DNA from: a virus
DNA: 64,000 nt
Direction: 5' to 3' (one strand)
IMG/VR virus record: IMGVR_UViG_3300034356_001764
Location: 1-64,000 of that record
Positions 1 to 61,451 of the stretch are shown one piece after another. The translations under genes were made by a program, and so were the position numbers. How positions within the stretch are numbered: the stretch's first letter is position 1; each line of letters starts with the position of its first letter. The notes beneath the pieces are model-generated. The model worked only from the letters and a program-made list of their open reading frames with translations, ran no database searches and had not been told where the DNA came from.

Positions 1-3000
1 GTGTACTATGTGTTAGTTCAAATCTACCGTTACCTTCCATACCAAATGTGTAAATACTACCATTTTTTGTAAGTACTTCATTTGTATAACCTTTTAATTT
101 ATCACCAGAAGGAAGATATATAGTATTATAATCGTTAGCAAAAGTCATTCTTCCTTCATTATTATCTACAATACCTAATCCAGAATCATTACCAATTGTA
201 TACACTATTACAGGATAATTTCTTGCTGTTATACTTTCTGTTGTATCTTTATGTGGATATACATATTGATTATCAAGATATATGTTTCCAATTACAGAAT
301 CATAATCTGACATGTCAATACCTAATGAATTTTGAATTTTATCTATTATAGGTTGTAATACACTAATAGAAGGTAATTGATTTCCTTTTTGATCTAAACT
401 ATGATAATTATAATAGTTATTATTAACCCCTTCAAATTTTTGAATTTTAACAGGATTAGCTTTAGGATTATTTCTTGCCCACATTAAACCATAATGAAAC
501 ATTTCATTTGCAAAAGTACCTTTATTTTCTTTATATGTTTGAGCTTGTATTTGTGGTTTTATTAATTCTACAAAATTTTGTGTTTCTTCTTTACTAGGAT
601 TAGTTTCAGCTTGTACAACACCATAATCTTCTGATATTACTTTAACATTAGTAGATGGTTGAGTAGTAATTAATTTATCAAAGTTTTCATGAAACACAAT
701 ATTATTTGGTATAGGTCCCGCAGCAATAAACATATCTGCCATTTCTTGACCTGTATAACCATTAAGATTAGTTCCAGAATAGTCTGATACTAAAAATTCT
801 TTATAACCTCTATTAGCTAAATCATAAAGCTTTTTGATACTAGAAATAATTTGCTCAGGTGATATAGATTTTAAACTGTTATTTTCTTTAACTCTTAAAT
901 CTTTAGTAGGTAAAGCATAACTTTGTCCTTGCAAACCTTCTCCCTGCCCATACATAGCTCCAAAATTATCTTTTGCATATTTAGCAGCACCAGCACCATG
1001 TCTTCCTTCAGGATTACTTCCAAATACAAATATTTGATTAGGTGCCAACTTAGTTACTTTTCCAGAGTATGTTTTTCTAGTAGTAGGTTCAACACTAGTA
1101 GATGATTGAGTAGTTCTTAATTGTTCTACTACTTCAGCTAATGCTGTAGGATGCATACCCTGACCTCTAGCTTCAGATTTACCAGCATATAGTAATGTAA
1201 CTCCATCAAGTTTACCTTGATTAATCTGATCAAGTATCCAGTTTCTTTGTTGTGGTTTTACGTCTTTATGATTAGTTCCTAACAACCATTCTTTATAAGC
1301 TACAACCGCTGCACCTATACTAGGAACTTTTATTGTACCCCCATAACCAGCTTCACTAAAAGGATTACCAAAGTTTTCAAAAGCATTAGTATTACTTGTT
1401 CTCATAGTATTAACACCTTCTGCAGTGTAAACTGGTCTTGACTCTAAATCACCTTTCCATTGTCTTGATGTATCTATTGTAGGTTTAACACTAGTAGCTG
1501 GTTGAGTAGAAGCTTCTTCAGCACTCTGAGCCTTAGCAAGCATGTCTTCAATCATTGGAGTATTAGCATCCATGATTACTTCTTCTTCTACAGGTTGAGC
1601 AACTGGCTTAGGAGCTATGTATGTCTTAGGATCTCTTACAAAATTAGTAAAGTCTCTATTAGGTGAATCAAGCATTAACTCAAAGATGTTTCCAAGAGTA
1701 TTCTCATTTAACTGTTTCTCCATGAATAGTTTTGAAGCAGATTGCATTACACCTAAGAATTCATTATAAGGAAGTGCTTCATTGAAACCATACTTACTGT
1801 ATCCTATACCATGTTGATACATGCTCATTATAGGGAGCAGGCCAAAAAGCTTACTGATTCTTTTGTTATCTGTAGGGTCTGTAACTTTCTTTACATTTTC
1901 ATCAGCCAAGTCTTTCAGATTTTCAAAGTAAATCTCTGCTAACTGAGGATCTTTCAACATTGCTTTATCATTCAAAGTTAAAACTCTTTCTCCAGTCTTA
2001 ATGTTTGGTATAGTAAGCTGACTCAAGATTGGGTATCTTCCTTTAAGTTGAGAGAATTCTTCTATCATATCCAAGACCATGTCTGTATATGATTGACCCT
2101 CAATACCCATAATTGCTTTTCTATTGAATGCATTAATTAATGCTCTTTGATTTATGTAAGCTTCATAAGCTTCTTTATCATTGGCAGTTAACTCACGCAT
2201 TTTTTTGAAGTCTTTGTTTTCTAATACAGACTCAAGTGAATATAAATTTCTTTGATTCTCTCTTTCAAACACATATCTAAAATAGGCAGCTTCTGATTCA
2301 AATATTGCTGAAGTTCCAAACCCTCTTAATCCACTTTCAGAATAATTGCCGGGCATAGTATTATTCCTGTAATACAAACCTTCTTGATATTCTTTTCTAA
2401 GCTTTGCCTCATCTACAAACAATTTCCCATCAATGATCTCTGCACCATTCTTTACTCCAACTTTACTGACAACATCCATCTTATTAAAGTTCTTAGGCAT
2501 ACTTGTTAGTTGGCCATTCTCATCAACAAAGTTGGACATATAGTTTTGGAAGATATAATTTGGAATAGCATTTTTGAACTGAGTAATAAAATTTCTTGTT
2601 CCGTCCTGACCTTTTCCAAATCTTTTTGCAACTGCACCAGCTCTTTCAGTACTTGTTTTCAAGATAAAGTTAGTTACAGTATCATTATTTCTAAGTGGAA
2701 ACAATGGAACAATAAGATCACTGATTAATCTATTGTCAAAGAAAGTACCAAGTACAGTTTCTTTTAATTTATCTACTGTGCCTTCTTCAATCTTAGACAT
2801 TTGTTTAGCATCTTCCAATGACATGTTTCTTCTTATTACTTCTTGTAAAGTTTTAGAAGTCTTAGTATCTGGATTAGATAAGAACTTAAGTGTAGTAAAC
2901 CCGCGGCTAGATTTTTCTAGCTCAATAAAATGAAGGAACATTGCTTCCATATGATTTCTCAAAGCGGGTTCATTTGGATTCTTAATGATTTTTCTCATTA

Positions 3001-6000
3001 GTTCAATATCAAACTCACCTTTAGAATTTAAAATACCTGAAGCACCTGTTGCTTTAGTAACAGCATTATAATATTTTTTCTGACTTACTTTCTGTGCCCC
3101 ATCTTTAATACCAAACTTTGCTAAAGCATTTACTGCTGCCTGGTATTTACCCATGGTTGCTATAAAATCTTCTTCAATTGTTCCTGTAACTTTTGAGTAT
3201 GCACCCTTAATTATTCTTTGTTGTTTTGCATACTCTCTAACAATTGGATTTGACGCAAATAGAATTGCAGTTTCTTTAGGTACACCGGCTTTTAGTAAGA
3301 AAGTAATCATTGGAGTGATCTCATAATTACCTTGAATAAAGAATATCCATGCATCTTTCTCAACATCCACAGCACCATTCATCATTTGTGAAAATAATTC
3401 ACCAATGTTATCCATACCGTCTACAGTATCTGTACCTGAAAGAGAAACTCTACCATCTTGAGTTTTGTTATGAGGCAACATTAGTCTTACATCATAATCA
3501 TTTTTTCCATCAACATATCTTCCAAGACTTTGATCAAACACTGAATCTTTATATGTTGCTGGCATGGATATACCTATTGAATTAAAGATTGGATGTAATG
3601 CATTTTCTACAGCAATCATACCCAACACTCTCTTAGCAATCGTGTTTACATCATGTTTGTGTAAGTTGTAACCTACCTCAAGAATTCTTGTTGGGCTAAT
3701 CACTTTAGCACCTTTCTGATTAACTCTATATTCCTTACTATTCACATTCTTAAATCTGTTATACTCAATAACATCATCTTGAATTACATCAGCTATTTCA
3801 TCTTTTAATAAGTATGTATCATTTGGTCTTACTAATGATGCATAATTATCTGGCAACTCAAGAATACCTTTAATTGTATTGATTAATCTGTTTTCTAAAG
3901 CTGCTTTCTGTTTCTTAATTAAAGCTCTGGCAACTTTACTTCCTCTTTCATTTCCAGATAATTCATTTACTTTTTTAAGAACTTCATCATTAGTCAATCC
4001 TGTTTCAACATATTGACCATTACTATCTATGCTAGGCATAAATGTTGTCAACTTATCAACATCATAATCAGCTCCTGATTTAGCAACAATTTCTGATGGT
4101 GGAATAATAATATTTCCTGCTGCTGGATCTAAGAACTCATAGATTTCCATGAACTCCATTGAGTTAATACCCTGAACTGGGATACGTACTGCAGATATTG
4201 TTACTGCTTTACGGTTATTATTCAAGTCCAACCACTTGTCATCCTTAATCATTTCATTAAGTCTTTCTCTTGTTGCAATAGGTTGACCGTCTAAGTGGTT
4301 AAGTTTAAGCAAGTTAGCAAAGTCTCCTTGAAGTGCAACAGCAACTTTCATTGCTGCCGTCTTACCATCAGCTGTATCATTATTATAGAAAGGTAAATTA
4401 TTAGTACCCATGTACTTTAATATATCTGCCTTAGTAGCTTTCTTAAGTTTGCTATCCCACATTCCATTGGACATAGAACTAGCAACTTGAACTAATGCTT
4501 CACCTTTTACTTTTTGTTTTATTAATCTTTTTTCTACAAGAGAAACAAGAATCTTTTCAATATCATCAGCTTTAAGGTGCAGAGACAAATCTGTTTTAAT
4601 AGATTTATCTCTATTGAGCCCTACCATTTGTATCAAATGCTCAGGAAGATCTCTTCTTTCAAGTTCTCTTTGAACAACATCTAAGAAGTCTTGTATGTTT
4701 CCAGTATACTTACCAGTCTTTGGATTATACTCATATCCAATTTCATGAAGTAATTCAAGCTTTAGAATATTACTATAAGCATCAACGGCAGCTTCATATG
4801 ATTTTACTGCAACTGAGTTTTTAGGATTGATAATTTTACCATTTCTGTACATACCTCCCAAGATCAACTTTCTTAACTGAGTTGAGAACACAGTTTTGTT
4901 TTTAAACTTGTTAGGTACATTAGTTACATTCTTAAGATTCTCAAGGTAAATAACATTTGGTGTAAATGCAATATCTCTTTTTAAAGACTTTTGATCTTTA
5001 TCATCATAAATCTTATCTGCTACTGCTTCACCTTTATCATTTACTTCAGATGTAACACTACCAAGCTTTGAACCAGTTTGGAATGTAACATACTGAATAT
5101 TCTTAGTCATCATTTGTCTATGAAGATTTTCAAGATCTGAACCAGCAATAACACTAGGGATTAATGGAGCTAATGCAAACTTGTGCATTGCATTTACTGG
5201 AAGACCAGTATTGGCTAAGTTACCAAAGTTTTGTACTTTGTATACAGGGAAGAATTCTTTTATCTCACTTGTAGTTACATTGTCTCCTTTAGCAATTCTC
5301 TGAAATAATATTTCTTGCTCATTAGACCAAGCATTTTCAAGATGTCTTAGTGTCCGGTATGCATCAAAAGTGATAAAGCCTTGCCCATCTCCTTCTTCCA
5401 TTCCTTTATACTTACTAAGTTCTATCTCTAATCTTTTATTAATTATCTTTTCAGCATTTGGAATTCCTGCATTTTTATATCTTGCTTCATAGTCTTTTCT
5501 AAGTCCCTTTTCAATTTGACCAAGATATTCTGAATCTCTAATTACATCTTGAATAATTGCAGTATTGAAAGTTCCATTGTAAGCAATTGCAGAAATGCCT
5601 TGTTTTTTAGCATAAGATGTAGTGGCTAAGTAACCATTAACAAATTTTCTTGCTGCTATGTCAGATCTAAATCCAGGGCCCCCAGATGTAGCTCCAGTAT
5701 TTCTCTTGTGCATCTCTTCTTTGTAGTGATTGTATTGAGCAAAGTCACCATAGAAAAGAATACCCATTTCAAAGTTATGTATCCAAGAATTATAAGTATA
5801 AGCTTCAACAAGCTTTTGTTCTACTTGATCATCTGATAGATTAAATATTTTCATTCTATCTTTAAGATCTTGAGAAATATATTTTGATTCCTGAAGCATC
5901 TCAAGATTTTCTTTAGCTTGTCTGTCAAAGTATTTCTTTACATCTCCTCTTAATACACCAAGTGCACCTGTAGTGTCTGCTTTTAGAAATGTACTTAAGT

Positions 6001-9000
6001 TAAATAGAGTCTTATTCTTAACTGCAGAGTCAATAGCATCATAGATTTGTTTCTTTAGTGAATCTGAGATAACATCATCAAAGGCTGTAAATTCTTCACC
6101 TGCCATTCTTCCACTACTGAGCACTCTATTATAGCCAGCATATTTCTTAAACTCATCTTTGTTAATCTTGAATCTGTAGATTCTTTCAGCCTCTGCTTCC
6201 ATGTAAGGAAGTAAATGAGCCTTTAATGCATAATCAAATGCAGTTCCTTTACCAAACATGTCAAGGTCAACCCAAAGTTTATTATCTCCACCTTCTTTAC
6301 CTGGTAGACCAATAACTCCTCCTTCAATTCTAGCACCAAAAGACGAAGACTTAGAAGCATGTCTCATAAATTCTTGCACACCATCTTTTAACATAGTATG
6401 CATTTCCTGAATCATCTTACCATTTACATCTAAACTTGTTGTGTTAAATCCATCTTCATTCTCAACTTGAGTTCCAGAGTTTGCAAATAATAAAAATGAT
6501 CTTGTTGTTCTTCTTGATTGCTCAGGAGACTTCAAGTCATACAATGATCTGATTATACCTAATCTATTTGTGTAAGAGTTAATAGCAGGGTCCATATAAG
6601 ACATATACTTAAACTCATCACTGGTCCAAAGATCAGAAAGTTTCTTTGCATTATTTAATGCATATACTTGTTTGCTAATTGTATGATTGTCAATAAATTC
6701 AGAGACAAGATTCTTTTCAGCATTAAGCACCATAGAATTAGATGTTCTAGTACCATATCTTGCTTCAAGACTTGCAATTGCAATTACTTTATTTTTCTGT
6801 ACAATTTCTGTAGCACCAATAATATTAGCAGGAATTCCTTTTGATAAAACTTCAATTGGGTTTTCTCTAAAATTACTAATCAAACTTCTTACAGTACTAC
6901 TAGTATTTGGAAGTTGTTCTTTCTCATGCAATTTTTTGATGATCTCAAAAATATATGGAAGACCAAACTCTTCAATTGTTTTGTTATCTTTCTTAAGTGT
7001 ATTTTTGATAATACTTAAATCACTCAAGTTGAATCCAATAGCTCTTGCAAAAGCATATGATTGATTTACATCTAACTTACCTTGAGATGAAAAACTATCA
7101 ACTACTTTTCCAAGATTAAGCATTGGTGTATTATCTCTACCAACTCTTTCTACATATGGATTATACTGATTTGCTCTGAAGTTTTCTCTAAACATTCTTA
7201 CAATGTTCCCAACTTCATTAGAAGCTTCAGTTACTTGTGCATCATAATCATAAACAGGAACTGTTTTCTCTTCTCTAGTGAATTGATTGTACTCAATTTT
7301 CTCACCCGTCTGATTCTTAAACACAGTAAGCTGAATATAAGGTACTCTAGTTTTACTAAAGTCTTGCCAGAAAGATGTTGTTGCTTGAAATTCAAATGCA
7401 TTATTAGTAAATACAGTTGGGTTAGCAAGCTTTGACTGCACAAGTTGTTTAAACTCTGGTACAGTTTCACTTTCTTGCATGAGCTTATCATACATTTGCT
7501 GTGGATCCTGAATGCTGCCAATTGCTCTTACTGTATTATTCCAAGTACTTCTAAAATCAGCAAGCTTCTTAAATCCTAATTCATTGTATTCATACTCTAC
7601 TTGACCCGTCTTCTTATTAATCTTTGCTTGATACAAACTTTTTAGAATGTAAAGAGTTTCCTTACCAGCTAATTGAATAAGTGACTTATCATTATTTTTT
7701 TGATCCCCAAATCTTTCAGTATCAGCCGCATTCTCAGGCTCAACAAGATTTCCTTCTTCATCTAATTCTAATGCAGTATACTTTTGTCTTACAAGGTCAT
7801 AAGAACTATTCTCCACATGGTATTGTACAAGTCCGGATTTTGTGTCCCCATAGTTTTCAAGACCAGTTTGTATAATCCTAATTCTGTTTTGTAGTATGTC
7901 CCTTTTATATTCATTCTCTTCATTCTCAGGAGTTTCCTCCAATTGTGTTTCATAACCCTTTAACTTCTCTTCTAGATTTTGCTTAATCATATTATAAAGA
8001 GGCTCACGGTTTCTTTTATCCAAAAGAATACTTAATGTTGCTCCCTTATTATCTCTTTTACTTACTTCATTATCAATGATACCAGAGATAATAGAATCCA
8101 TACTATCTTTCAATAAGTTGGAATCTTGTCTATTTAATACTTGATCTGTCTCAGTACCTGGTTTAACTATACCACTGTTTCTATAGAGCAAGTCAAACAT
8201 AACATTGTCTATAAGTGGTGTGTAGTTATTCAGATTCTTACCTAAATATAAATTATCAAATAATTCTTTTACTGTACTTATCTCAGATAGATTTGTAACT
8301 GAACCTTTTCCAAATAATGCTTTTAAGAAATCAAGTATTTTTCTAAAAAGACTATTTCTTTTTGGTGCATCTTTTACTGTCTTTTGATTCTTTGCATAAT
8401 CTCTAAACTCCTCAGCAAGTAATTCTTCAATTTCAAAGAAGCTTAAGCTTTTACCTGTTCTTCTAAGTACTTCATTGTATAGAGCCTTCTTTTCAGCTTT
8501 AGTGAGATATAACTGAGAGAAACCATGCCAAGCTTCATGATAAACATCAACCATATTTCCAGTAGCTGCAACTTCAATCATACCTAGGTTGCCATTTAAT
8601 GCAGCACCATAAGCAATAAATCTTGCATAAGCATTAGAGTTAACAATGTTTGCTACTTGTTTAAGTCCAATGTGTTTATTTAATGGAGAGTTTGCCCACC
8701 ATTGTTTAGCATCTTCTACCTGCTCAGTAGATACATCAGATGGAAGGTCTCCTTTTCTTAGGAAGAATACATCACCGGCCCCATTGCTTTCTGGAGTTGG
8801 AACATTCTTTGGATCAATATAACTGTTAATCTCATTCTGAACTTCTTCAATTGATTTAGCTTTAGTTACTTGAGGAGCAAATGCTTTATCAAATTCCTTC
8901 TGAATGATTTCCATCTCAGTTTTACTTGGGCTTCTGAAAGTTGAATAAAGATCAAGCACCTCTTGCATGGTTTCTTTTGTAAACCGTCCAGCATTATTTT

Positions 9001-10957
9001 TTAACTGGTTAGTTAAATAAGTTGACATGTAGTAATTATCCTTGTGAGTCTTACCTGTCTCTTGATCAACAACCGTTTTCCATCCTCTTGCCTCTGTTGA
9101 AATGGCTTCTTTCATTAGATTGTTGAACATCTCCTCTCCTGGAGTAAGACTTTCATCCATCATAGACTCAAAGAAGTCATCTTTATTAACTGTTTCAGTT
9201 GACTCTTGAGCTTTTGCTAGTTGTTCTGTGAACTGATTTGGTAAAGCAAAACCCATGTAACTGTTAAATGATCTACTGTTAATAGATATATCTGCAAAGA
9301 TTTTAGTATTGGGAAGCCCTTTAATTAAAGCAAAGTAATCTTGGTAATCATCTGACAATGTGTTAGTTGCCACATCATAATCTTGATAACCTTTCTCTAT
9401 TGCTTCATCACTATAAGTCATTTTGGCCGCATAGTACTTACCATCTTTTCCTGAAGCATTTGTTAATGCATCAGTAATTTGTTGAAATGCTTCTGGTGAG
9501 TTAAGATCTACTGGTTCAAACTCACTATATCCTTCAGCAAAAGTTGTTAGAGAATATGAGAACATTAGTTTATCTGTTTTCTCTAAATAAACTAAATCAT
9601 GCTTTCTTGTATCATTTGATGCCTTGTCAGCCAAGAACTGAGATACATAACCATACTTCTCTTTGTTTGTTAAATTTTTGTTGGTCAAAACAGAAGCAAT
9701 CTTTTTAGTAAGTTCTGCAGTTAAGTTTGGACGGTCAACTTCATATTCAACACCTTTGATTGTAATTACACCTACTCCTTTTTCAAAACCAGAACGTGGA
9801 GATTTAACAACAGATAATGTTCTTATGGCATGATCATTATCTTCTAGTATAATACTGATATTAGATAAGTTTAATGCATTTGGTTTAATCTCACTAATCC
9901 CCTCGCTAACACCAACTATGTCTACTAAAGGTGACTCACCTTTAATAAGCTTTTCTCTAAACTCATAGAGCTCTTTAAATTCATCCTGTTGTCTTTCTTG
10001 TGCTTCTTCTAATGTGATACCTGATTTCTCAGCTAGAATAGCAGGGTCTATAATTTGTTCTGACCTTCCGTAGATATCTGTAACCTTAAACTTATTCCCA
10101 TCCTTTCTAACCTCTCTTAAGAATTGATAAACAAGTCGGCCACCTTCAGCAACTATATCTCCTTGTTCATTAAACTGTAATGGAATACCATCTTTATCAG
10201 AGATAACCATTAGAAATATATTATCTGGTGTTGTTACATAGTCTTGTGCTTTACCTGATCCCTTCAAATAAGCTGCTCTAGTGACCAATCTCTTTGTTGT
10301 CTTATCTAATAGATTCTCATCTACTTCAGATAACCTTACAGGCTTTAACTTAAGTATAGTATCTTGATATACAAGTTCTCTTAATGGAGTATTGTTATTT
10401 GCTTCTTCTCTAATTGCTGCAAGAGTAGAATAAATTGTTCTTCTTCCTGGATCAAAAGTTTCTGTTTGAATATCTTCATTAGGACTCTTAGAAATAAATT
10501 CCTGAAATGTAGTTGACAAAGATGAATATGTCTGATAGTTAAAGGGATCAGCAGGAACTGTATCACTAGTTTTCTCAGCAATATGAAATGCTTTTAATGC
10601 TTTCTTTTCAATAAGTTCTTTCTCAACATCCGGATCTAGCTGTGGTCTAAAAAATTTAATAGTATTATCAATACCATTCTCAGACTTCTTAAACTTTTTA
10701 ATAAGTGGTTTTAATGAGTCTGTTTTAATTTCAAAGTCTTCCAGAGCTGGACGGAAAGATGCAGTTCCAATCATAGATGGAACTTGTTGCATAAACTTAG
10801 CTGCAGTATCTACATCAGAGTTTTTTGCAATCTTATTGAACAAATCCTTCATGTATTGCTCAGGATTGAACGCGTCTCCTTGTTCAACCATGTTTCCATA
10901 CACATTAGAATATAATTTTTTAATCTGAGATTCAGATAAAGCACATTGTATTTTCAT
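1..10957 (-). CDS. Giant virion RNA polymerase polyprotein with zincin and C-terminal enzyme modules (partial, runs off window)
   Basis: An open frame of at least 3652 codons starts at ATG 10957 and is still open at base 1. It follows the previous stop by three bases. Seen in order: a long N-terminal region with no recognised fold; a zincin motif HEAWH at residues 807-811 followed by a helix with EELLAEEF that could supply the third zinc ligand; and DYDVD at residues 2297-2301 within SGADYDVDKLTTF. The last matches the DxDxD metal-binding loop of the double-psi-barrel virion RNA polymerases of crAss-like phages (characterised in Cellulophaga phage phi14:2). The C-terminus has three more modules: DUF4326-like (about 3182-3280), macro-like with VFGSNPEGRHGAG (about 3300-3420), and AlkB-like with HKD at 3569-3571 and a second His at 3650. 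The protein would be packed in the virion, enter the cell and transcribe early genes. The polymerase call is strong for the family; the accessory modules are motif-level calls. Confidence 0.85.
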   Translation of the reverse strand, partial: MKIQCALSESQIKKLYSNVYGNMVEQGDAFNPEQYMKDLFNKIAKNSDVDTAAKFMQQVPSMIGTASFRPALEDFEIKTDSLKPLIKKFKKSENGIDNTIKFFRPQLDPDVEKELIEKKALKAFHIAEKTSDTVPADPFNYQTYSSLSTTFQEFISKSPNEDIQTETFDPGRRTIYSTLAAIREEANNNTPLRELVYQDTILKLKPVRLSEVDENLLDKTTKRLVTRAAYLKGSGKAQDYVTTPDNIFLMVISDKDGIPLQFNEQGDIVAEGGRLVYQFLREVRKDGNKFKVTDIYGRSEQIIDPAILAEKSGITLEEAQERQQDEFKELYEFREKLIKGESPLVDIVGVSEGISEIKPNALNLSNISIILEDNDHAIRTLSVVKSPRSGFEKGVGVITIKGVEYEVDRPNLTAELTKKIASVLTNKNLTNKEKYGYVSQFLADKASNDTRKHDLVYLEKTDKLMFSYSLTTFAEGYSEFEPVDLNSPEAFQQITDALTNASGKDGKYYAAKMTYSDEAIEKGYQDYDVATNTLSDDYQDYFALIKGLPNTKIFADISINSRSFNSYMGFALPNQFTEQLAKAQESTETVNKDDFFESMMDESLTPGEEMFNNLMKEAISTEARGWKTVVDQETGKTHKDNYYMSTYLTNQLKNNAGRFTKETMQEVLDLYSTFRSPSKTEMEIIQKEFDKAFAPQVTKAKSIEEVQNEINSYIDPKNVPTPESNGAGDVFFLRKGDLPSDVSTEQVEDAKQWWANSPLNKHIGLKQVANIVNSNAYARFIAYGAALNGNLGMIEVAATGNMVDVYHEAWHGFSQLYLTKAEKKALYNEVLRRTGKSLSFFEIEELLAEEFRDYAKNQKTVKDAPKRNSLFRKILDFLKALFGKGSVTNLSEISTVKELFDNLYLGKNLNNYTPLIDNVMFDLLYRNSGIVKPGTETDQVLNRQDSNLLKDSMDSIISGIIDNEVSKRDNKGATLSILLDKRNREPLYNMIKQNLEEKLKGYETQLEETPENEENEYKRDILQNRIRIIQTGLENYGDTKSGLVQYHVENSSYDLVRQKYTALELDEEGNLVEPENAADTERFGDQKNNDKSLIQLAGKETLYILKSLYQAKINKKTGQVEYEYNELGFKKLADFRSTWNNTVRAIGSIQDPQQMYDKLMQESETVPEFKQLVQSKLANPTVFTNNAFEFQATTSFWQDFSKTRVPYIQLTVFKNQTGEKIEYNQFTREEKTVPVYDYDAQVTEASNEVGNIVRMFRENFRANQYNPYVERVGRDNTPMLNLGKVVDSFSSQGKLDVNQSYAFARAIGFNLSDLSIIKNTLKKDNKTIEEFGLPYIFEIIKKLHEKEQLPNTSSTVRSLISNFRENPIEVLSKGIPANIIGATEIVQKNKVIAIASLEARYGTRTSNSMVLNAEKNLVSEFIDNHTISKQVYALNNAKKLSDLWTSDEFKYMSYMDPAINSYTNRLGIIRSLYDLKSPEQSRRTTRSFLLFANSGTQVENEDGFNTTSLDVNGKMIQEMHTMLKDGVQEFMRHASKSSSFGARIEGGVIGLPGKEGGDNKLWVDLDMFGKGTAFDYALKAHLLPYMEAEAERIYRFKINKDEFKKYAGYNRVLSSGRMAGEEFTAFDDVISDSLKKQIYDAIDSAVKNKTLFNLSTFLKADTTGALGVLRGDVKKYFDRQAKENLEMLQESKYISQDLKDRMKIFNLSDDQVEQKLVEAYTYNSWIHNFEMGILFYGDFAQYNHYKEEMHKRNTGATSGGPGFRSDIAARKFVNGYLATTSYAKKQGISAIAYNGTFNTAIIQDVIRDSEYLGQIEKGLRKDYEARYKNAGIPNAEKIINKRLEIELSKYKGMEEGDGQGFITFDAYRTLRHLENAWSNEQEILFQRIAKGDNVTTSEIKEFFPVYKVQNFGNLANTGLPVNAMHKFALAPLIPSVIAGSDLENLHRQMMTKNIQYVTFQTGSKLGSVTSEVNDKGEAVADKIYDDKDQKSLKRDIAFTPNVIYLENLKNVTNVPNKFKNKTVFSTQLRKLILGGMYRNGKIINPKNSVAVKSYEAAVDAYSNILKLELLHEIGYEYNPKTGKYTGNIQDFLDVVQRELERRDLPEHLIQMVGLNRDKSIKTDLSLHLKADDIEKILVSLVEKRLIKQKVKGEALVQVASSMSNGMWDSKLKKATKADILKYMGTNNLPFYNNDTADGKTAAMKVAVALQGDFANLLKLNHLDGQPIATRERLNEMIKDDKWLDLNNNRKAVTISAVRIPVQGINSMEFMEIYEFLDPAAGNIIIPPSEIVAKSGADYDVDKLTTFMPSIDSNGQYVETGLTNDEVLKKVNELSGNERGSKVARALIKKQKAALENRLINTIKGILELPDNYASLVRPNDTYLLKDEIADVIQDDVIEYNRFKNVNSKEYRVNQKGAKVISPTRILEVGYNLHKHDVNTIAKRVLGMIAVENALHPIFNSIGISMPATYKDSVFDQSLGRYVDGKNDYDVRLMLPHNKTQDGRVSLSGTDTVDGMDNIGELFSQMMNGAVDVEKDAWIFFIQGNYEITPMITFLLKAGVPKETAILFASNPIVREYAKQQRIIKGAYSKVTGTIEEDFIATMGKYQAAVNALAKFGIKDGAQKVSQKKYYNAVTKATGASGILNSKGEFDIELMRKIIKNPNEPALRNHMEAMFLHFIELEKSSRGFTTLKFLSNPDTKTSKTLQEVIRRNMSLEDAKQMSKIEEGTVDKLKETVLGTFFDNRLISDLIVPLFPLRNNDTVTNFILKTSTERAGAVAKRFGKGQDGTRNFITQFKNAIPNYIFQNYMSNFVDENGQLTSMPKNFNKMDVVSKVGVKNGAEIIDGKLFVDEAKLRKEYQEGLYYRNNTMPGNYSESGLRGFGTSAIFESEAAYFRYVFERENQRNLYSLESVLENKDFKKMRELTANDKEAYEAYINQRALINAFNRKAIMGIEGQSYTDMVLDMIEEFSQLKGRYPILSQLTIPNIKTGERVLTLNDKAMLKDPQLAEIYFENLKDLADENVKKVTDPTDNKRISKLFGLLPIMSMYQHGIGYSKYGFNEALPYNEFLGVMQSASKLFMEKQLNENTLGNIFELMLDSPNRDFTNFVRDPKTYIAPKPVAQPVEEEVIMDANTPMIEDMLAKAQSAEEASTQPATSVKPTIDTSRQWKGDLESRPVYTAEGVNTMRTSNTNAFENFGNPFSEAGYGGTIKVPSIGAAVVAYKEWLLGTNHKDVKPQQRNWILDQINQGKLDGVTLLYAGKSEARGQGMHPTALAEVVEQLRTTQSSTSVEPTTRKTYSGKVTKLAPNQIFVFGSNPEGRHGAGAAKYAKDNFGAMYGQGEGLQGQSYALPTKDLRVKENNSLKSISPEQIISSIKKLYDLANRGYKEFLVSDYSGTNLNGYTGQEMADMFIAAGPIPNNIVFHENFDKLITTQPSTNVKVISEDYGVVQAETNPSKEETQNFVELIKPQIQAQTYKENKGTFANEMFHYGLMWARNNPKANPVKIQKFEGVNNNYYNYHSLDQKGNQLPSISVLQPIIDKIQNSLGIDMSDYDSVIGNIYLDNQYVYPHKDTTESITARNYPVIVYTIGNDSGLGIVDNNEGRMTFANDYNTIYLPSGDKLKGYTNEVLTKNGSIYTFGMEGNGRFELTHST
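644..666 (-). repeat. 23-bp linker repeat, copy C
   Basis: In-frame repeat inside the giant polymerase gene encoding TTQPSTNV (residues 3431-3438). It differs from each of the other two copies at two positions. It lies between the macro-like and AlkB-like modules. Confidence 0.85.
1091..1113 (-). repeat. 23-bp linker repeat, copy B
   Basis: In-frame repeat encoding TTQSSTSV (residues 3282-3289). It lies between the DUF4326-like and macro-like modules of the giant polymerase protein. It is two mismatches away from copies A and C. Confidence 0.85.
1487..1509 (-). repeat. 23-bp linker repeat, copy A
   Basis: In-frame repeat encoding STQPATSV (residues 3150-3157). It lies just before the DUF4326-like module of the giant polymerase protein. 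The three copies are all in the same reading frame, so the peptide as well as the DNA is conserved. Confidence 0.85.
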
Positions 10958-10960
10958 AGC

Positions 10961-13900
10961 TTAACATTTCAAGTCTTCTAATAACTCAGCATCTAATTCT
11001 TTAATTGTTTTATTAGAAACAGTTTTCTCAAGTTCCGTTAATTGGTCAGGACTATTCAGTATAGTATCAGCTAAATCTGATGACTGAGTAACCATTTCCT
11101 GTTCTTCTTTAGTAACAGGTTCTGTAACTTGTTCTGTTGTATCCATTACTGTATCTTTTAATATAAACATTTCATTTAACTTATCAAAGCCTACAGTCAT
11201 TTCTTCTGTACTTCCCATAGGAGTAACTGTAACAGTTTTCTTTGTTTTATCAACTGACTTGACTACAAGAGTATCATTTGTCATTGCAAACATTTTTGCA
11301 TCATCAAAGATAATCTCTTTTGCTATAACTTGAGTACCTTCTGTTAAACCAATTGGATCAATTTTTACAGTTCCCGCTTTTATTTCTGCAGCTTTTTGTT
11401 TAGCTAATTCAGACATTACTTGCAAATCTTCAAATGCAACAACCTCTTCAGAAACTTTAATGTGTAAGTCTGAAACAATTTGCTGTAGCTCATCCATTGT
11501 TTTAACTTTTGCAATATCTACTTTGAAGTCATTAATTGAATATCTTTTACTATCATCAATTACTTCTACTTTTCTAGAATCACTATCCTGTGTTGGTGAA
11601 TCAACATCATCACTTGACTGTGGATCTTCTGGAATTGTATCAGCAGTAGATATTTGTGTTTTAGATAATGAACCAGGTCCATAAAAAGATTTAGCATCAT
11701 ATATTACATAAAAAGGATCAATCTTTTCATTACCGATTATATGATTAATAACCTTTACACCTTTTACTTCTGGATTTGATTCTTGAAAATCATTGAATAA
11801 GTCTATTGCTGATCCTGGACTATCTTTTAAAGTATTTGTATCATCATATTCAGTTTTTGAACTTCCTCCTACATAACTTCCACCTTGAGGTGTAGACTTA
11901 CCCATTTGAGGATTATTAAACTTAAATCCTTTAGCTACCAGCATGTCATACATTGCTTTTTGAGACATGTTAGCATCTATAACTATAAAGTCAGAATCTT
12001 TAACTTCTCCTTTAATAGGATTTCCATATCTATTAACAAAGAAGGGTGTAGTAGTAGAGGCTGCATTTAAACCATCTCCAAACTGACTTATTTGATCAGT
12101 ACCTCTTTGAAAATTACCAAAATTAAAATCTTGAGCTTTTACATTTGTATGATGATAAACAGTAACAATATTAGAAGCAGTAGTAGAACTACTTTCTAAA
12201 GCAGCTAGTTCTGCATCATATTTAGCATTGATTTTATCAGCTGCATTAGGTTTTTTATTACCAGCTTCTCTTGATTTTTTAATAGCTTCTCTTGCTTGTT
12301 CAACACTTTCAAAAATTAAAGTATTAACTTCTGCCGCTTGAACCATTACCCCATCTTTTTTAATTAGTGGTTTAATAGTTCTTGATACAGGTGATGGTAG
12401 ATCATCTACAGTAACTTCTTCACCTCTTTTTTCTAAATTATTTATCTTTAATTCTATTGCATTAGCTTGTTCTTCTGTAAGAATATCTTTTTCACTATTA
12501 TAAAAATCTATACCTTCTATTATTGTATTCTCTCCGTATTTAACTATATTGTAATCTACTATCTCATAACCTTGTTCTTTTAATTTTGCTTTAGCTTCTG
12601 ATAATTGTTGTTCTTGTTCTTTTGAAAGTAGTGTGCCTTGGTTTTTATTTTGTTCAATATTTACTATTGCATTAGCAACTTGTTCTGGTTTAGTTGCTTC
12701 TGATAAACTATTAAAACCTTTTGTTAATTGCTTTTGACCGAGTTCATTTAATTCTTCTTGTCTTCTTCTTTTTATATCAGCTTTTTTAGATTCTATGTCA
12801 GATACAGTTGTTGTAGCAGGTTTATTTAAAGCATCTAATTCTTCATCATATTTTTTATTAATATTTTTAACATCTTCTATTGCATATACTTTAGTTAGTT
12901 CTGCTTCATTTTTTGGAGTACCATCTTTTTTTAGTTTATATGCTTCTAATTCTTCTTGTCTTCTTTTTTCTATCTTAGCTTTTTGTACTTCTACATCAGA
13001 TGGTTTAGCTTTAGCAGCCTCTTTCTCACTCATCTTACGGAGCTCTTCATTGATCTCAGAAGTTTTATCCTGGAACATTTCTTTCTCTTGTTGAGTAAGG
13101 TCTGTACCATTCTTAACTTTTTCTGCAATCTTAGTGATACGGCCAGCTTTAACTATACCATTGTCAACAAAATTATCATACTCATCAGCAGTAATTTCAT
13201 CTGATACCTTAGCATCATTCTTAGTTCTTGTATTGATAAGTTTTTCAAGGTCTTTAGAGATGATGCTATACTTAGACTTGTTAGTCATATCTTCAGTAGT
13301 AGGATTTTCACTCTCACTAATATCCTTAATCATCTTGTCAAATCTTCTTTTCATTTTCTCAAGGTCTTGAATAGTTTTAAGATCTGCCGTCTTAACCATC
13401 TTGCCTTGATACATGAATTCAAATTCTTCTTTCTCACCAGTTTCTTTAGTAGCTTCATCAAGCTTTTGCTCTTTGTTATAAGTATCAATAAGCCCTTTTG
13501 CAATTGGATCACTTTGAAGAAACTTTTCAAACAAGTTTCTTTCTTGCTCAGGATTCATATTTACATACTCCTCAGAATCCATTTTCTTAATAACTCTTTC
13601 ATTGAACTCTTTATTAAGCTTGTTATACAAAACAGGGGAACGTGTAATAATATCTTCTAATGAAGTAGCTGAAGTAATTGGTTCTAATTCTGAAGTCTTT
13701 TTTTCTTTTTCTTTTTTCTCAACCTCTTCTACTTGCTCAGTATACTGATTGATCCTGTCTTCTTTAAGCTCTTCATATCTTTTTTCAATCTCCTGAGTAT
13801 ATTCTGGGTTAGGTCTTTCTGCAATGATATAAGTTTCTACAGAAGTAAATGTAACTGGTACTGTATCAACTTGAACAAGATCTCCCTCAGCATCATTCTC

Positions 13901-16900
13901 TCTAAGATTACCTTCTTCATCCATGAACAATATGAAATTGTCTTCAGCTCCATAACTTGCTTCAGCATATGTATTTGGTTGTAACTGTTCTTGTACCATT
14001 TTAGCAGTAACTTGACCAGAAGAATTTGGTTCTAGCTTACCTTTAGAAACTTTTGTTTCAATCTGAGGAACATTCTTAAGCTCTGCTTCTTTTTGTGATT
14101 CAAGTTTTTCTAAATCAGCATTAAGAATTTTATCTAATGATGATGGTACTGTTCCACTTTTCTCTGCTTTTAATTGAGCAGCTTGATCAAAAAGCATATA
14201 ATATACATCATAGGCTTCTGTTCCTTCAGGTATAACTAACTTTCTTGCATGATCATAAAATTCTGACGGTGGAATACCTTCATTTTTCCAAGCAGCAAAG
14301 TCATCCATACTAATGTACACACTCTTATTAGCTAATGCATTTAAGAGAGCATTATCTACTACAATATCAAATTGATCTGTTATCATTTTCTGATAGTACT
14401 CACCTCTTCTTGCATAAAGATCTTTCATCCATTTCTGGTTTCTTTCTACAAGGTCAAGAAATCCTGCCGGGTCATGTAATAAGTTAACTCCTTTAATAAG
14501 TGATCTAGCTTCAGAATCTAATTTATGATGATCTGCAAGTAATTCAAAGGCTTCATCAACCTTCTCATCAAACAAGTAATCCTTATTTACATTTGCAACA
14601 GTTTTAAGATACTCTTTAAAAGCTGTTTCATATTCAGATGTTTGTTGAATCTTATTATCATCACTAAACTCTCCAAAGTATTCATCCATTACAGCTTCTA
14701 CTTCTTCATCAGTTACAGGTTCATCACCTTTTTCTTTCTGAAGTACTTCTCTAATTTCTGCAGATCTTTCATATCTGTTAAAGAAATTTGTAAAGCTTAC
14801 TGTAGCCTCACCAAGTTTTTGCATTGCAGCAAGTTTGCTTTCTTTCTTTTTTAATTCTTCTTTAGATGCAGGATCTTTTAATTGCTTAAGAGATTCAATT
14901 TCATTTTTAAGTAGACCAACTTCATTACGTAGTTTATCATTATCAAATATAACTTCTGAGTCTCTTTGAGTTAAACTTTGTAAAGGCTTTTGAGTATTAA
15001 ACTTTTGTATAATATCTCTTTTTCTCTTCATTGTATCTTCAAATGTTTCATTGAAGAATACAGCATTCTTAGTTGCATCTTCCCATGCATTATGCAAAGT
15101 CACAGCATTCTCATACTCAGGAGTTCCTTTTGGAGGAAGATTATCTGGATCAATAGGGTTCCCATACTTCTCTTTGTAAGTTTTATATCTACTATTAATC
15201 TTATCCATTTTATCAATGGTATCATTAATCTTCATTTGATACTTAGCTCCTTCACCTTTAGGTACATTAGGAACAGCATCTTCAAACTCTTCTGGAGTTA
15301 GTTGTTGAAGATCTCTCAGTTTCTCTTGATATGATTCTAAACTACCATTTCTGACAAGTAAGTCCATCTGATTTAATAATGCCTCATGATCAGCATCCAT
15401 TGCTTCTTTTTTACTTCCGGATTCTTTTATTTTAGATATGATATCCTGTTGGCCATAATTAAATATTTTAGCATCTAAGAAATCTTTAACATCAATTCCA
15501 TTTAGATTATTAACTAAGTCTTTTGTTATCTCAAGCTTTTTATCTTTTAACTTTTGGTAGTCTTCCTTATTGAACATTCTATTGAAGCCAACACCAAGAT
15601 ATTCAAAACTTTTATTCAAAGGAGATGCAAATGTTCCCATTACAAAACCAGAAGCAAATGTTTCAAAACCTTGTGCAGAAACTTGTCTTCCTAACTCATC
15701 AGAAAAATAATCATACTTTGATACTGACTTACTATAGTTATGAGACTGAACAGCACCGCTTTTAAAAGTATCTGTATAGTATCTTTCATTAGCACCACCA
15801 ATAACTTCTTGTAAGTTTTCTTGAATACCTTCAGTAAAGTTAGATTTAAAGTATCCAACTGTATTACCTACTGATTTATATATTGGATTCTTTGCCCATC
15901 CTTTTACATAGTTTTTAAAGTTATTTTTCTCAAAGGCAAATTTCTTTTTAGTTTGATCATATACAACCTTACCTAATTTACCAAACTTACCACCAGATAC
16001 TTCTGATAATTCTTTAACAGTTGCTTTAGAAAAGTTTCTTAATCCACCTTTAGGTCCAACAATATTTGGAAATGTAATTAAGTTTGACCCATAGATAAGA
16101 CCTGTGTTCCAATAGAGAGTATTTAAAGATCCTTTCTTGGCTTGTTTCATCATATCATACTGAACTTCATCAGATGGAGATTCATTATTCTTTGCATAGT
16201 ATTCATTGTAGAGATTATCATAAATTGAATTCTCTACCATACCTGCTTCAAGTCTTGATTCAGATAATGCCATATTGATGTTTCTTACATCTCTGTAAAA
16301 TCCACCGGCAGTTTTATATGCACGTCCAAGATTTGTAAAGTTGTCAGCTTGATTTGCTAACTTATATGCATCAAAAGTATTACTTAATGGATTTACTGTT
16401 TTAGCAAAACCTTTACTAGCATTCCAAAATTCTCTAGCTCCTTTTACACTATTAACAGTATCAAGAGTTTTATTGATGGCTTTCATACCATCAGTGGCAA
16501 AATTAATTCCTTTATAAACTGCTTTTCCTACTCTTGCAATATTTGCTGCTGTTCTTGCAAACAAAGCTGGAGCTGCTATTCCTGCTGTACCTACAGTAGC
16601 TAATCCTAAAGCAACTTCTTCTAACACAGCTTCAGTAATAATACCTGCTGAATATGAAAAATTCATCATAGCATTACTTGTAAAAGCACCAAAACCTCCT
16701 TTACTAGACTGACCAATAGCAGCAGCTTCTTCATAAGCCGCAGCATCTTCTAAGTCTGTCCCAGTAAAATCACCAGTAAGCATCTTACCTAATGACTTTG
16801 GCCCTGATATAAAACCTCTTGTAAAGAGCGGAACAAATGAGTTTGTCATCATTCTAGAAAAATCATCCCACTGAGTAGTTCTAGCATTAAACAATGCTTC

Positions 16901-17356
16901 ATTATCTCTTATTGGAGAAAAACCAATCTCATCAAATTTATCTTGACCATAGGCTTGATATCTTTTATAAAATGCATTACCATCTGGTCCAGCATTATAA
17001 GAATATATCTTTCCATATTGATTTTTATCTGCATTTGATCTTAATGTACCAAGAGCATAATCCTTCATGGATTTTCTTAACTGATCAAAACTTGCATTTT
17101 TATTTATACCAGGTTTGCTTGGAGGATTTCCTACAACAGTTTTTCTAACTTCAGAAGCAGGATTAGTTAAATTTTCTACATCCGGTAATACTGGTGTAAA
17201 ACTTTGAGTTTCTGGAAAATTTATTTTAGGCATATCAATTCTATCTCCTTCAAAAGCTGCTAAACCTTTAGCATCAATTGTTGGAGTATTAATACTTCCA
17301 TATTCCGGTCCTAGTGAATCTAAAGAACTGAATGGTACATTATCATCTGCTGCCAT
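10961..17356 (-). CDS. Giant virion cargo/ejection protein with ADP-ribosyltransferase-like module
   Basis: A 2131-residue protein. Its ATG overlaps the upstream gene's end by 14 bases, and an AAAGG sequence lies about 9 bases upstream. The N-terminal third resembles cargo proteins of crAss-like phages and has Ala/Gly-rich hydrophobic stretches, one near residues 235-275, suited to membrane contact during ejection. The middle is highly charged and helical, with long Glu/Lys coiled-coil stretches. Near residues 1455-1540 a RRQEEL unit occurs twice, and a KYDxELxAL unit occurs twice, the second near 1710. From about 1733 to 1900 the sequence VYHHTNVKAQDFNFGNFQRG, then FGDGLNAAS and a later YVIYDAKSFYG, resembles the ADP-ribosyltransferase modules found in polyvalent phage proteins. 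The Gln/Thr/Asp-rich tail has no recognised fold. The virion role is inferred from position. The transferase call is tentative because the catalytic Glu cannot be fixed by eye. Confidence 0.75.
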   Translation of the reverse strand: MAADDNVPFSSLDSLGPEYGSINTPTIDAKGLAAFEGDRIDMPKINFPETQSFTPVLPDVENLTNPASEVRKTVVGNPPSKPGINKNASFDQLRKSMKDYALGTLRSNADKNQYGKIYSYNAGPDGNAFYKRYQAYGQDKFDEIGFSPIRDNEALFNARTTQWDDFSRMMTNSFVPLFTRGFISGPKSLGKMLTGDFTGTDLEDAAAYEEAAAIGQSSKGGFGAFTSNAMMNFSYSAGIITEAVLEEVALGLATVGTAGIAAPALFARTAANIARVGKAVYKGINFATDGMKAINKTLDTVNSVKGAREFWNASKGFAKTVNPLSNTFDAYKLANQADNFTNLGRAYKTAGGFYRDVRNINMALSESRLEAGMVENSIYDNLYNEYYAKNNESPSDEVQYDMMKQAKKGSLNTLYWNTGLIYGSNLITFPNIVGPKGGLRNFSKATVKELSEVSGGKFGKLGKVVYDQTKKKFAFEKNNFKNYVKGWAKNPIYKSVGNTVGYFKSNFTEGIQENLQEVIGGANERYYTDTFKSGAVQSHNYSKSVSKYDYFSDELGRQVSAQGFETFASGFVMGTFASPLNKSFEYLGVGFNRMFNKEDYQKLKDKKLEITKDLVNNLNGIDVKDFLDAKIFNYGQQDIISKIKESGSKKEAMDADHEALLNQMDLLVRNGSLESYQEKLRDLQQLTPEEFEDAVPNVPKGEGAKYQMKINDTIDKMDKINSRYKTYKEKYGNPIDPDNLPPKGTPEYENAVTLHNAWEDATKNAVFFNETFEDTMKRKRDIIQKFNTQKPLQSLTQRDSEVIFDNDKLRNEVGLLKNEIESLKQLKDPASKEELKKKESKLAAMQKLGEATVSFTNFFNRYERSAEIREVLQKEKGDEPVTDEEVEAVMDEYFGEFSDDNKIQQTSEYETAFKEYLKTVANVNKDYLFDEKVDEAFELLADHHKLDSEARSLIKGVNLLHDPAGFLDLVERNQKWMKDLYARRGEYYQKMITDQFDIVVDNALLNALANKSVYISMDDFAAWKNEGIPPSEFYDHARKLVIPEGTEAYDVYYMLFDQAAQLKAEKSGTVPSSLDKILNADLEKLESQKEAELKNVPQIETKVSKGKLEPNSSGQVTAKMVQEQLQPNTYAEASYGAEDNFILFMDEEGNLRENDAEGDLVQVDTVPVTFTSVETYIIAERPNPEYTQEIEKRYEELKEDRINQYTEQVEEVEKKEKEKKTSELEPITSATSLEDIITRSPVLYNKLNKEFNERVIKKMDSEEYVNMNPEQERNLFEKFLQSDPIAKGLIDTYNKEQKLDEATKETGEKEEFEFMYQGKMVKTADLKTIQDLEKMKRRFDKMIKDISESENPTTEDMTNKSKYSIISKDLEKLINTRTKNDAKVSDEITADEYDNFVDNGIVKAGRITKIAEKVKNGTDLTQQEKEMFQDKTSEINEELRKMSEKEAAKAKPSDVEVQKAKIEKRRQEELEAYKLKKDGTPKNEAELTKVYAIEDVKNINKKYDEELDALNKPATTTVSDIESKKADIKRRRQEELNELGQKQLTKGFNSLSEATKPEQVANAIVNIEQNKNQGTLLSKEQEQQLSEAKAKLKEQGYEIVDYNIVKYGENTIIEGIDFYNSEKDILTEEQANAIELKINNLEKRGEEVTVDDLPSPVSRTIKPLIKKDGVMVQAAEVNTLIFESVEQAREAIKKSREAGNKKPNAADKINAKYDAELAALESSSTTASNIVTVYHHTNVKAQDFNFGNFQRGTDQISQFGDGLNAASTTTPFFVNRYGNPIKGEVKDSDFIVIDANMSQKAMYDMLVAKGFKFNNPQMGKSTPQGGSYVGGSSKTEYDDTNTLKDSPGSAIDLFNDFQESNPEVKGVKVINHIIGNEKIDPFYVIYDAKSFYGPGSLSKTQISTADTIPEDPQSSDDVDSPTQDSDSRKVEVIDDSKRYSINDFKVDIAKVKTMDELQQIVSDLHIKVSEEVVAFEDLQVMSELAKQKAAEIKAGTVKIDPIGLTEGTQVIAKEIIFDDAKMFAMTNDTLVVKSVDKTKKTVTVTPMGSTEEMTVGFDKLNEMFILKDTVMDTTEQVTEPVTKEEQEMVTQSSDLADTILNSPDQLTELEKTVSNKTIKELDAELLEDLKC

Positions 17357-60103: not shown

Positions 60104-60618
60104 TATGCATCATATGCTAGTCCTTGACCTCCGCGTACTTTGCTAGATTGCTCCTCTTGTAAGTCTTTATAAACTCCTTTGAATGAGGCTCTTATCTGAT
60201 CAAAATTCTTTGCGGCTGCTACAAGTGAATTAATATTTCCATCTCTTCCTGCTGTGATGGGTGTAGTTTCCATATACTTTCCAAGCCTATCAAGCATTGA
60301 AGACATTCCTTTATATGCTCTAGATGTAGGAGTTTCATACATTCTTTCACAAAATCTTAATGCTGCAAAAACTGTAGCATCTTCTGTTGAGAACTCTCCT
60401 TCAATCTCACGCATTATTATAGATTCTTTTTCAACTTCTGGAGTATGAAAGAAAGGATTCATATCTGGATTAGGACAAGTCATATAAAACAGATACTGGT
60501 AAATCTTAAGATGCTCTTCTGGATATTCATCCATTACATCTTTTAATGCCTTCAGTGTATAACAGTGCTCAGTAGGGATTACTGTTCTGTTTTGAACATC
60601 AAATAGTTTTATTAACAT
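60103..60618 (-). CDS. Candidate terminase small subunit / packaging accessory
   Basis: A 171-residue helical protein translationally coupled on both sides (TAATG with TerL; TAATG with the nuclease gene). It includes CYTLKALKDVMDEYPEEHLK, EDATVFAALRFCERMYETPT and AYKGMSSMLDRLGKYME. No classic helix-turn-helix is obvious, but size and position before TerL are those of a small terminase. Alternatively it is another conserved crAss-like packaging protein. The TerS name is an inference. Confidence 0.5.
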   Translation of the reverse strand: MLIKLFDVQNRTVIPTEHCYTLKALKDVMDEYPEEHLKIYQYLFYMTCPNPDMNPFFHTPEVEKESIIMREIEGEFSTEDATVFAALRFCERMYETPTSRAYKGMSSMLDRLGKYMETTPITAGRDGNINSLVAAAKNFDQIRASFKGVYKDLQEEQSSKVRGGQGLAYDA

Positions 60619-61451
60619 TAGTGTTTTGTTTTAAGTTTATCTCTGTTGTCATTAATATAATGAATAATTGCCAATACTTCATCAACTAAATAAGGTATTG
60701 CAATTGGTAAAACTTCTTTTACTATAGGATCTCCATGAAGATCACGCTTTGTTATTGGGTATCCCCAGTCATCTTCACCTTCAACTTCAAAAATTACATG
60801 ATGAACAAATATTCTTCCTGGCTTAAGTTTTGGATTATGCTTAAGTATAATGTACATGTAGATGCTTAACTGTAAAGCATAGTGATAGAAATGACAATCA
60901 TCAAGATTATCTACTGGAGGTAACAACTTAGTTGATTTACCTTCCCAGTCTACCCATGATTCTTTTTTAATTTCTTTGTTAGTTTTATAGTCAATGATAT
61001 TTACTTTACCATTGACTACTTCAACTAAATCTGATTGTCCACAAATACCTACTGAACGTAGATATACCATGTGCTCAGGATAAACTCCTGGTTCAAGCTT
61101 TTGAGATGGAGCATGTCTTATTCCATTATTCTCACCGGATGGTTTAAATACAGGAATAGTTACTCCTTCTCTTTCAATTGAAGCAAATGAACATATGTCA
61201 TCTTCTCTTTGGTTATGATAAAATGTTCCAAGAGTAGTAGATCTATCTGCTTCATTTTTCCAAATTTGTTGTATTATAATAGGATCAACACCAGCCCACT
61301 TTGACTTCTTGTTTTTAGAAACTCTTTCTGCAACCTTCTTTGTATCAAAAGGTATTTTAAAATGAGAGACAAGTGTTGTTACACTTACCCAATCAATGTT
61401 ACTATCTTCAAGACTTTTGTAACTGTGATCATCTGCGTTAAATACTATCAT
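60618..61451 (-). CDS. PD-(D/E)XK nuclease (RecB/Cas4-like)
   Basis: A 277-residue protein. Motifs in order: TTLGTFYHNQRE (His79 region), GQSDLVEVV with Asp141, NIIDYKTNKE with Asp154-Tyr-Lys156, and ALQLSIYMYI with Gln194 and Tyr198. This is the set of the RecB/Cas4 superfamily of exonucleases. No Cys cluster for an iron-sulphur site is visible. Such enzymes serve in phage recombination or end processing. It is coupled to the TerS candidate and lies among DNA-binding genes, so processing of phage DNA before packaging is plausible. Confidence 0.8.
   Translation of the reverse strand: MIVFNADDHSYKSLEDSNIDWVSVTTLVSHFKIPFDTKKVAERVSKNKKSKWAGVDPIIIQQIWKNEADRSTTLGTFYHNQREDDICSFASIEREGVTIPVFKPSGENNGIRHAPSQKLEPGVYPEHMVYLRSVGICGQSDLVEVVNGKVNIIDYKTNKEIKKESWVDWEGKSTKLLPPVDNLDDCHFYHYALQLSIYMYIILKHNPKLKPGRIFVHHVIFEVEGEDDWGYPITKRDLHGDPIVKEVLPIAIPYLVDEVLAIIHYINDNRDKLKTKH

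Follow-up and report, generated by a model that had tools for sequence, protein, structure and literature searches.

The C-terminal end of a giant phage gene contains three near-identical copies of a 23-bp sequence, raising the question of whether this DNA merely spaces the neighbouring domains or marks the point at which they are exchanged. The gene lies in a 64,000-nt stretch (the window) of an 80,203-bp IMG/VR virus record. A preliminary description, made from the sequence alone, had taken the gene for a polymerase and the repeats for the seams of a cassette insertion. Comparison with further phage contigs makes it probable that a conserved 23-bp seam, common to many environmental crass-like phages, marks the exchange of modules by pairing of linkers, and that these modules are injected effectors. 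The features of the window that bear on this question are as follows (all on the minus strand).

2..643 (-): module M3, AlkB-type 2OG-Fe(II) dioxygenase (PF13532, PDB AlkB-family matches, invariant ligands)
644..666 (-): linker 3, CTACTCAACCATCTACTAATGTT, read as T-TQPSTNV, between M2 and M3
667..1090 (-): module M2, macrodomain of the A1S_2505 / phrog_2072 family (profiles and predicted structure)
1091..1113 (-): linker 2, CTACTCAATCATCTACTAGTGTT, read as T-TQSSTSV, between M1 and M2
1114..1486 (-): module M1, uncharacterised, about 125 aa (87% aa identity to the L004 module)
1487..1509 (-): linker 1, CTACTCAACCAGCTACTAGTGTT, read as S-TQPATSV, between polymerase body and M1
1510..10957 (-): body of the giant Crassvirales RNA polymerase polyprotein (single open frame, homology to L006)
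4052..4075 (-): DxDxD catalytic motif GADYDVDK in the RNA polymerase beta'-like part (motif match)
60618..61451 (-): PD-(D/E)XK nuclease (PF12705, E 1.1e-4; phrog_298 exonuclease, E 6.7e-23)

The open reading frame 2..10957 (-) encodes 3652 aa and extends past the contig start. Its catalytic motif is the DxDxD motif described for crAss-like RNA polymerases (PMC7886860), and the same genome carries the crass structural genes Crass_capsid, CrAss_Ring_1, CrAss_Ring_2, portal and TerL. Motif and structural genes together bear out the assignment to a polymerase and identify the linker-bearing ORF, at the level of sequence, as a Crassvirales giant RNA polymerase protein. The polymerase body is 94.5% identical to that of contig L006 across 2,033 residues (1120-3152) and is homologous to most linker-bearing ORFs of testable length. 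All contigs in the comparison are fragments without host or taxonomy.

The three linker copies lie on the coding strand and are read in the frame of this ORF (TTQPSTNV, TTQSSTSV and STQPATSV); any two of them differ at exactly two bases. In a repeat search they formed the top direct-repeat family of the window. A 22-mer core with up to 3 mismatches occurred 3 times in the 64 kb, compared to 0 occurrences expected from 100 shuffles, which rules out a chance repeat. No further copy of the core was found elsewhere in the 80,203-bp record. Coordinates, frame and shuffles thus agree with the near-identical in-frame copies first described.

As had also been claimed, the linkers fall between three distinct modules. 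M3 was assigned through its family: all 7 of the 7 aligned members matched PF13532 (best E 1.1e-20), and the window copy alone scored under the Pfam cut-off. Its PDB matches are AlkB-family proteins, and the iron ligands, an HxD motif and a distal His, are invariant in the family alignment (H131, D133, H212). The window copy ends at the contig start after the distal His; at the C-terminus, where an Arg for 2-oxoglutarate is expected, relatives have TFRR or a similar motif. M2 matched phrog_2072 (E 1.1e-32) and NF049995 (E 2.3e-30), and its structural model (pLDDT 83) aligned with TARG1, viral and other macrodomains at a Foldseek probability of 1.00 and a TM of about 0.65. ADP-ribose binding or hydrolysis is predicted for this module. 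M1 matched no family in Pfam, PHROG or NCBIfam, and its model (pLDDT 82.5) had no fold match in the PDB. An assignment of M1 to DUF4326 (PF14216) was rejected, with no match in 6 contigs at E up to 1. Its counterpart in L004 (87% aa identity) is bordered by the same linkers. In L029 (residues about 2728-2989) M1 is split by another module (YGFGDNTQRAGTGGQAQ...) without a 23-bp linker, a nested insertion. The macro module of L005 (residues about 2010-2150) has conserved ends and a replaced middle segment, which suggests exchange within the domain.

The linker is widespread in phage DNA. A degenerate DNA pattern identified it in 54 further IMG/VR stretches, in every case in the same frame of a long ORF. 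The same pattern had 1 match in 257 Gb of cellular genomes, and a spread of the linker from cellular genomes was rejected on this count. That match, L063:2579-2601 (-) in a Lachnospiraceae contig, is probably due to chance. When 50 whole contigs were searched with a 21-mer, the copies of each contig were on one strand and formed one cluster of 1 to 7, and a reversed control 21-mer gave 0 matches in these contigs. The longest array seen (L044:6133-9540) packs seven linkers into 3.4 kb and joins AlkB-like, macro, NADAR and further modules one after another. A second array site lies on the N-terminal side of the catalytic motif and is followed by a YHEAWHGF-type domain (L015, L033, L014). The block conserved across 82 non-redundant linkers is CTACTCAAYCATCTACTAGTGTT; it has about 2 bits per base except at Y, and its edges at -2 and +20 are abrupt.

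Where linkers of two different contigs have homologous flanks, the homology is mostly on one side. In 112 pairs only the left flank is common and in 135 only the right (247 one-sided), while 19 pairs share both. Among 362 homology ends, 67 had a linker at most 15 nt away in both contigs, where random positions gave 0.26, and 85 had one that close in a single contig, compared to 18.7 at random. When right-sharing pairs were aligned on the linker, base -3 had an identity of about 0.31 and base -2 already 0.92. In 24 pairs the downstream 120 nt were at least 90% identical next to an unrelated upstream flank. Individual pairs illustrate this switch. L027 and L054 are 100% identical to the right and 22% to the left in a 60-nt display. 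The window and L004 have the end of M1 in common up to the linker (98% of 58 nt) and then drop to 36%. Between the window and L020, homology is limited to M2, on the downstream side of the linker (95% over 120 nt); in the 60-nt display the two are 94% identical to the right and 31% to the left. L006, with its 94.5% identical body, has a different module from the position of linker 1 on. In total, 86 distinct junctions were counted among 96 linkers. Because homology between phages starts and stops at the linker, these data support an exchange of modules with breakpoints at the seam. The predicted gain, loss or reordering of modules exactly at the linkers was indeed seen in relatives (the switch in L006, the 247 one-flank pairs, 67 ends against 0.26), and the breakpoints favour the linker DNA as a recombination seam, recombination itself being deduced from sequence.

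A conserved coding sequence between domains might simply reflect selection on the peptide, or convergence, with TTQPSTSV being a good flexible linker. Linkers rich in Thr, Ser, Gln and Pro suit interdomain spacers, and related TQQQ and TQPT linkers were also found at module borders. However, the conservation lies in the DNA. A synonym-tolerant pattern for TQPSTSV gave 68 in-frame matches, 56 of them in linker arrays, and in 48 of these 56 all synonymous sites were identical, compared to 4.9% expected per match from codon usage; these are counts only, and since related copies are not independent a binomial P value was set aside. The V codon was GTT in 48 of 48 cases, and alternative serine codons were unused: a control with swapped serine codons had 3 in-frame matches, 0 of them in linker arrays. 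At the 5' edge, judged on a linker set whose search pattern left base -2 free, the upstream codon was NCT in 39 of 48 distinct contexts (ACT, CCT, TCT, GCT). Its first base is free and its second and third are kept, therefore the conserved block cuts a codon; the first residue varies between T, S, P and A across linkers while the CT bases stay. Linker identity was about 0.97 whether the neighbouring modules were 30-50% or >85% identical in DNA. Conservation of the peptide only was rejected on the synonymous-site and codon-cutting evidence and is considered highly improbable, and the linker appears as a sharp-edged 23-bp DNA element. Another explanation is that metagenome assembly joined unrelated sequences at a short repeat. 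The data consist entirely of assembled contigs, and the repeat is close in length to the smallest k-mers that assemblers use. Against such chimeras, six junction sets are base-identical over 1.2-8.2 kb in separate IMG/VR records, which may share a site, and linkers flank modules of 30-100% identity, in frame and with a contig-specific variant preference. Assembly chimeras are thus regarded as an extremely improbable source of the pattern.

During co-infection or replication, phage or host recombination enzymes would pair two linkers, and a crossover at the paired linkers would swap, add or remove whole modules with the frame intact. A length of 23 bp would be enough for annealing-type recombinases: the breakpoints are confined to the 23-bp block, whose length is the smallest in the 23-27 bp range given for the minimal efficient pairing segment (MEPS) of Red-beta (PMC3945230). 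We infer short-homology or annealing recombination to be the best mechanism. The window's record yielded no annealing protein; in 27 fragmentary contigs, RecT gave weak matches below the cut-off in 2 and ERF gave none. The PD-(D/E)XK nuclease at 60618..61451 is a possible exonuclease partner for annealing recombination. The sharp edges and near-invariant sequence of the block, the cassette-like arrays with up to 7 modules and the placement of all copies within a contig on one strand would also suit a 23-bp core site for a dedicated recombinase of the integron or shufflon type, with cleavage at a fixed base. However, no tyrosine or serine recombinase domain (PF00589, PF00239) was present in the 27 contigs, where positive controls were detected and where, these being fragments, such a domain could be missed. 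Furthermore, a C/T variant at position 6 inside the linker does not track the module on either side (concordance 0.27 for the left and 0.33 for the right, vs 0.51-0.52 by chance), which argues against a recombinase with a fixed crossover and is expected if crossovers fall on either side of the variant or if linkers are converted. Site-specific recombination is therefore judged unlikely. Cutting of the linker by a homing endonuclease or another break-inducing factor, with repair from a second phage importing modules, has precedents: introns, inteins and homing endonucleases can be abundant in crass-like phages (PMC7886860), and in other phages nuclease genes lie where exchanged segments meet (PMC10448857). 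The arrays that were read contained no homing endonuclease, and a fixed cut alone leaves the sharp 23-bp conservation in both partners unexplained, making this explanation very unlikely.

The conservation of the linker DNA could stem mainly from the recency of the exchanges. Within genomes, linkers were concordant at 0.78 vs 0.49-0.52 (p 0.0014-0.0045; p 0.10 without L044), which is suggestive of homogenisation. The 23-bp sequence might also be a dedicated in-frame coding recombination site, a shared docking point through which the injected RNA polymerase, as a chassis, is rebuilt from a common pool of counter-defence modules by cassette exchange between lineages, i.e. a protein-domain counterpart of the integron. 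We put this forward tentatively, as the less likely case.

The 23-mer is not the only join between modules. A second seam type, TQQQ (ACTCAACAACAA), was a module border in all 8 cases seen (L018, L029, L047, L056), and TQPT-form linkers join modules in L005 and L061. In the gut phages frurule, cr112_1 and cr126_1, modules occur without the linker. The preliminary description had regarded relatives with the same three modules but other linkers as evidence against its proposal. Single modules with unrelated linkers do occur (L005, L061, L018 and the gut phage frurule). Because of these single modules, the 23-mer is taken as one of several seams, and modules can be exchanged without it. The TQQQ seam has the same ACTCAA start as the 23-mer. 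In gut Steigviridae (L199-L201), macro and NADAR modules are found in RNA polymerase genes at other positions, likewise without the linker.

What the modules do may be read from their content. The arrays contain macro, AlkB, NADAR (PF08719), DUF7831 and DprA-like domains, and several effector-type domains can be combined in one polypeptide, macrodomain and AlkB in the window and NADAR, DUF7831 and DprA-like domains in relatives. Of five modules analysed with PADLOC, only NADAR was matched. Macro, NADAR, SLOG and related phage domains have been described as tools against NAD+/ADP-ribose signalling that are often packaged (PMC9503650). The macro, NADAR, SLOG/DprA-like and AlkB content suggests a reversal of, or defence against, host defences that are based on NAD+/ADP-ribose or modify nucleic acids; effector roles of the individual modules are predicted. 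Virions of phi-crAss001 contain RNA polymerase-associated proteins, as shown by mass spectrometry for that phage rather than the one in the window (PMC10172136). From this literature on virion RNA polymerases, we infer delivery into the host together with the DNA. The polymerase would be packaged and injected, each module travelling with it as a passenger effector that enters the cell as infection begins. The modules are thus probably injected effectors, and the likely benefit would be a changeable set of injected counter-defence enzymes.

Several known systems resemble this arrangement in part. Integron gene cassettes are likewise exchangeable units lined up in arrays, with a short repeated site at each join. 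Unlike in integrons, no tyrosine recombinase was found in the 27 fragmentary contigs, and the units are in-frame domains of one protein instead of separate genes. Polyvalent proteins (Iyer et al. 2017, PMC5512222) are also large, multidomain and thought to be injected, with domains active on NAD/ADP-ribose and nucleic acids, and a cassette-like recombinational variability was raised as a possibility for them (PMC5512222). However, no shared DNA seam was found in that report (the terms 'linker' and 'shuffl' are absent from its text), whereas here a crass RNA polymerase chassis is combined with an identified breakpoint element. Recent domain shuffling between otherwise unrelated phage proteins is likewise the subject of Smug et al. 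2023 (PMC10684548), which is agnostic on the genetic process and lists receptor-binding proteins, endolysins and replication proteins. In the phages compared here, the crossover is marked by a single conserved coding sequence. Rad52-like phage recombinases also allow exchange over very short identity (De Paepe et al. 2014, PMC3945230). In such relaxed recombination homology is incidental, whereas here the same 23 bp are kept across divergent phages, in frame between modules. In polymorphic toxin cassettes, effector-encoding ends are swapped by recombination onto a conserved carrier in a similar manner (PMC3482391); the present arrays differ in having multiple tandem modules inside a virion-type RNA polymerase, with a near-identical 23-bp sequence between them. 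In the open-licence literature searched, neither an account of such a seam nor anything relevant on collagen-like repeats as recombination hotspots was found.

Mosaicism of phage proteins is well known, but the point of exchange is rarely visible. Here a short coding sequence marks it in about 50 phage contigs, which makes the mechanism directly testable. Small modules such as a DNA-repair-type oxygenase or an ADP-ribose-binding domain have been swapped like interchangeable parts between otherwise unrelated phages. The linker also provides a search handle, since reading outward from the 23-mer lists likely injected effector modules, many of them without a family match.

Next to the polymerase gene, a 2131-aa protein (10961-17356) has a YHHTNV... 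stretch near its C-terminus with a putative resemblance to the start of an ADP-ribosyltransferase. Beyond the window, the remaining part of the record (62001-80203) carries genes for a ferredoxin-type phrog_3704 protein, a DNA methyltransferase and an endolysin.
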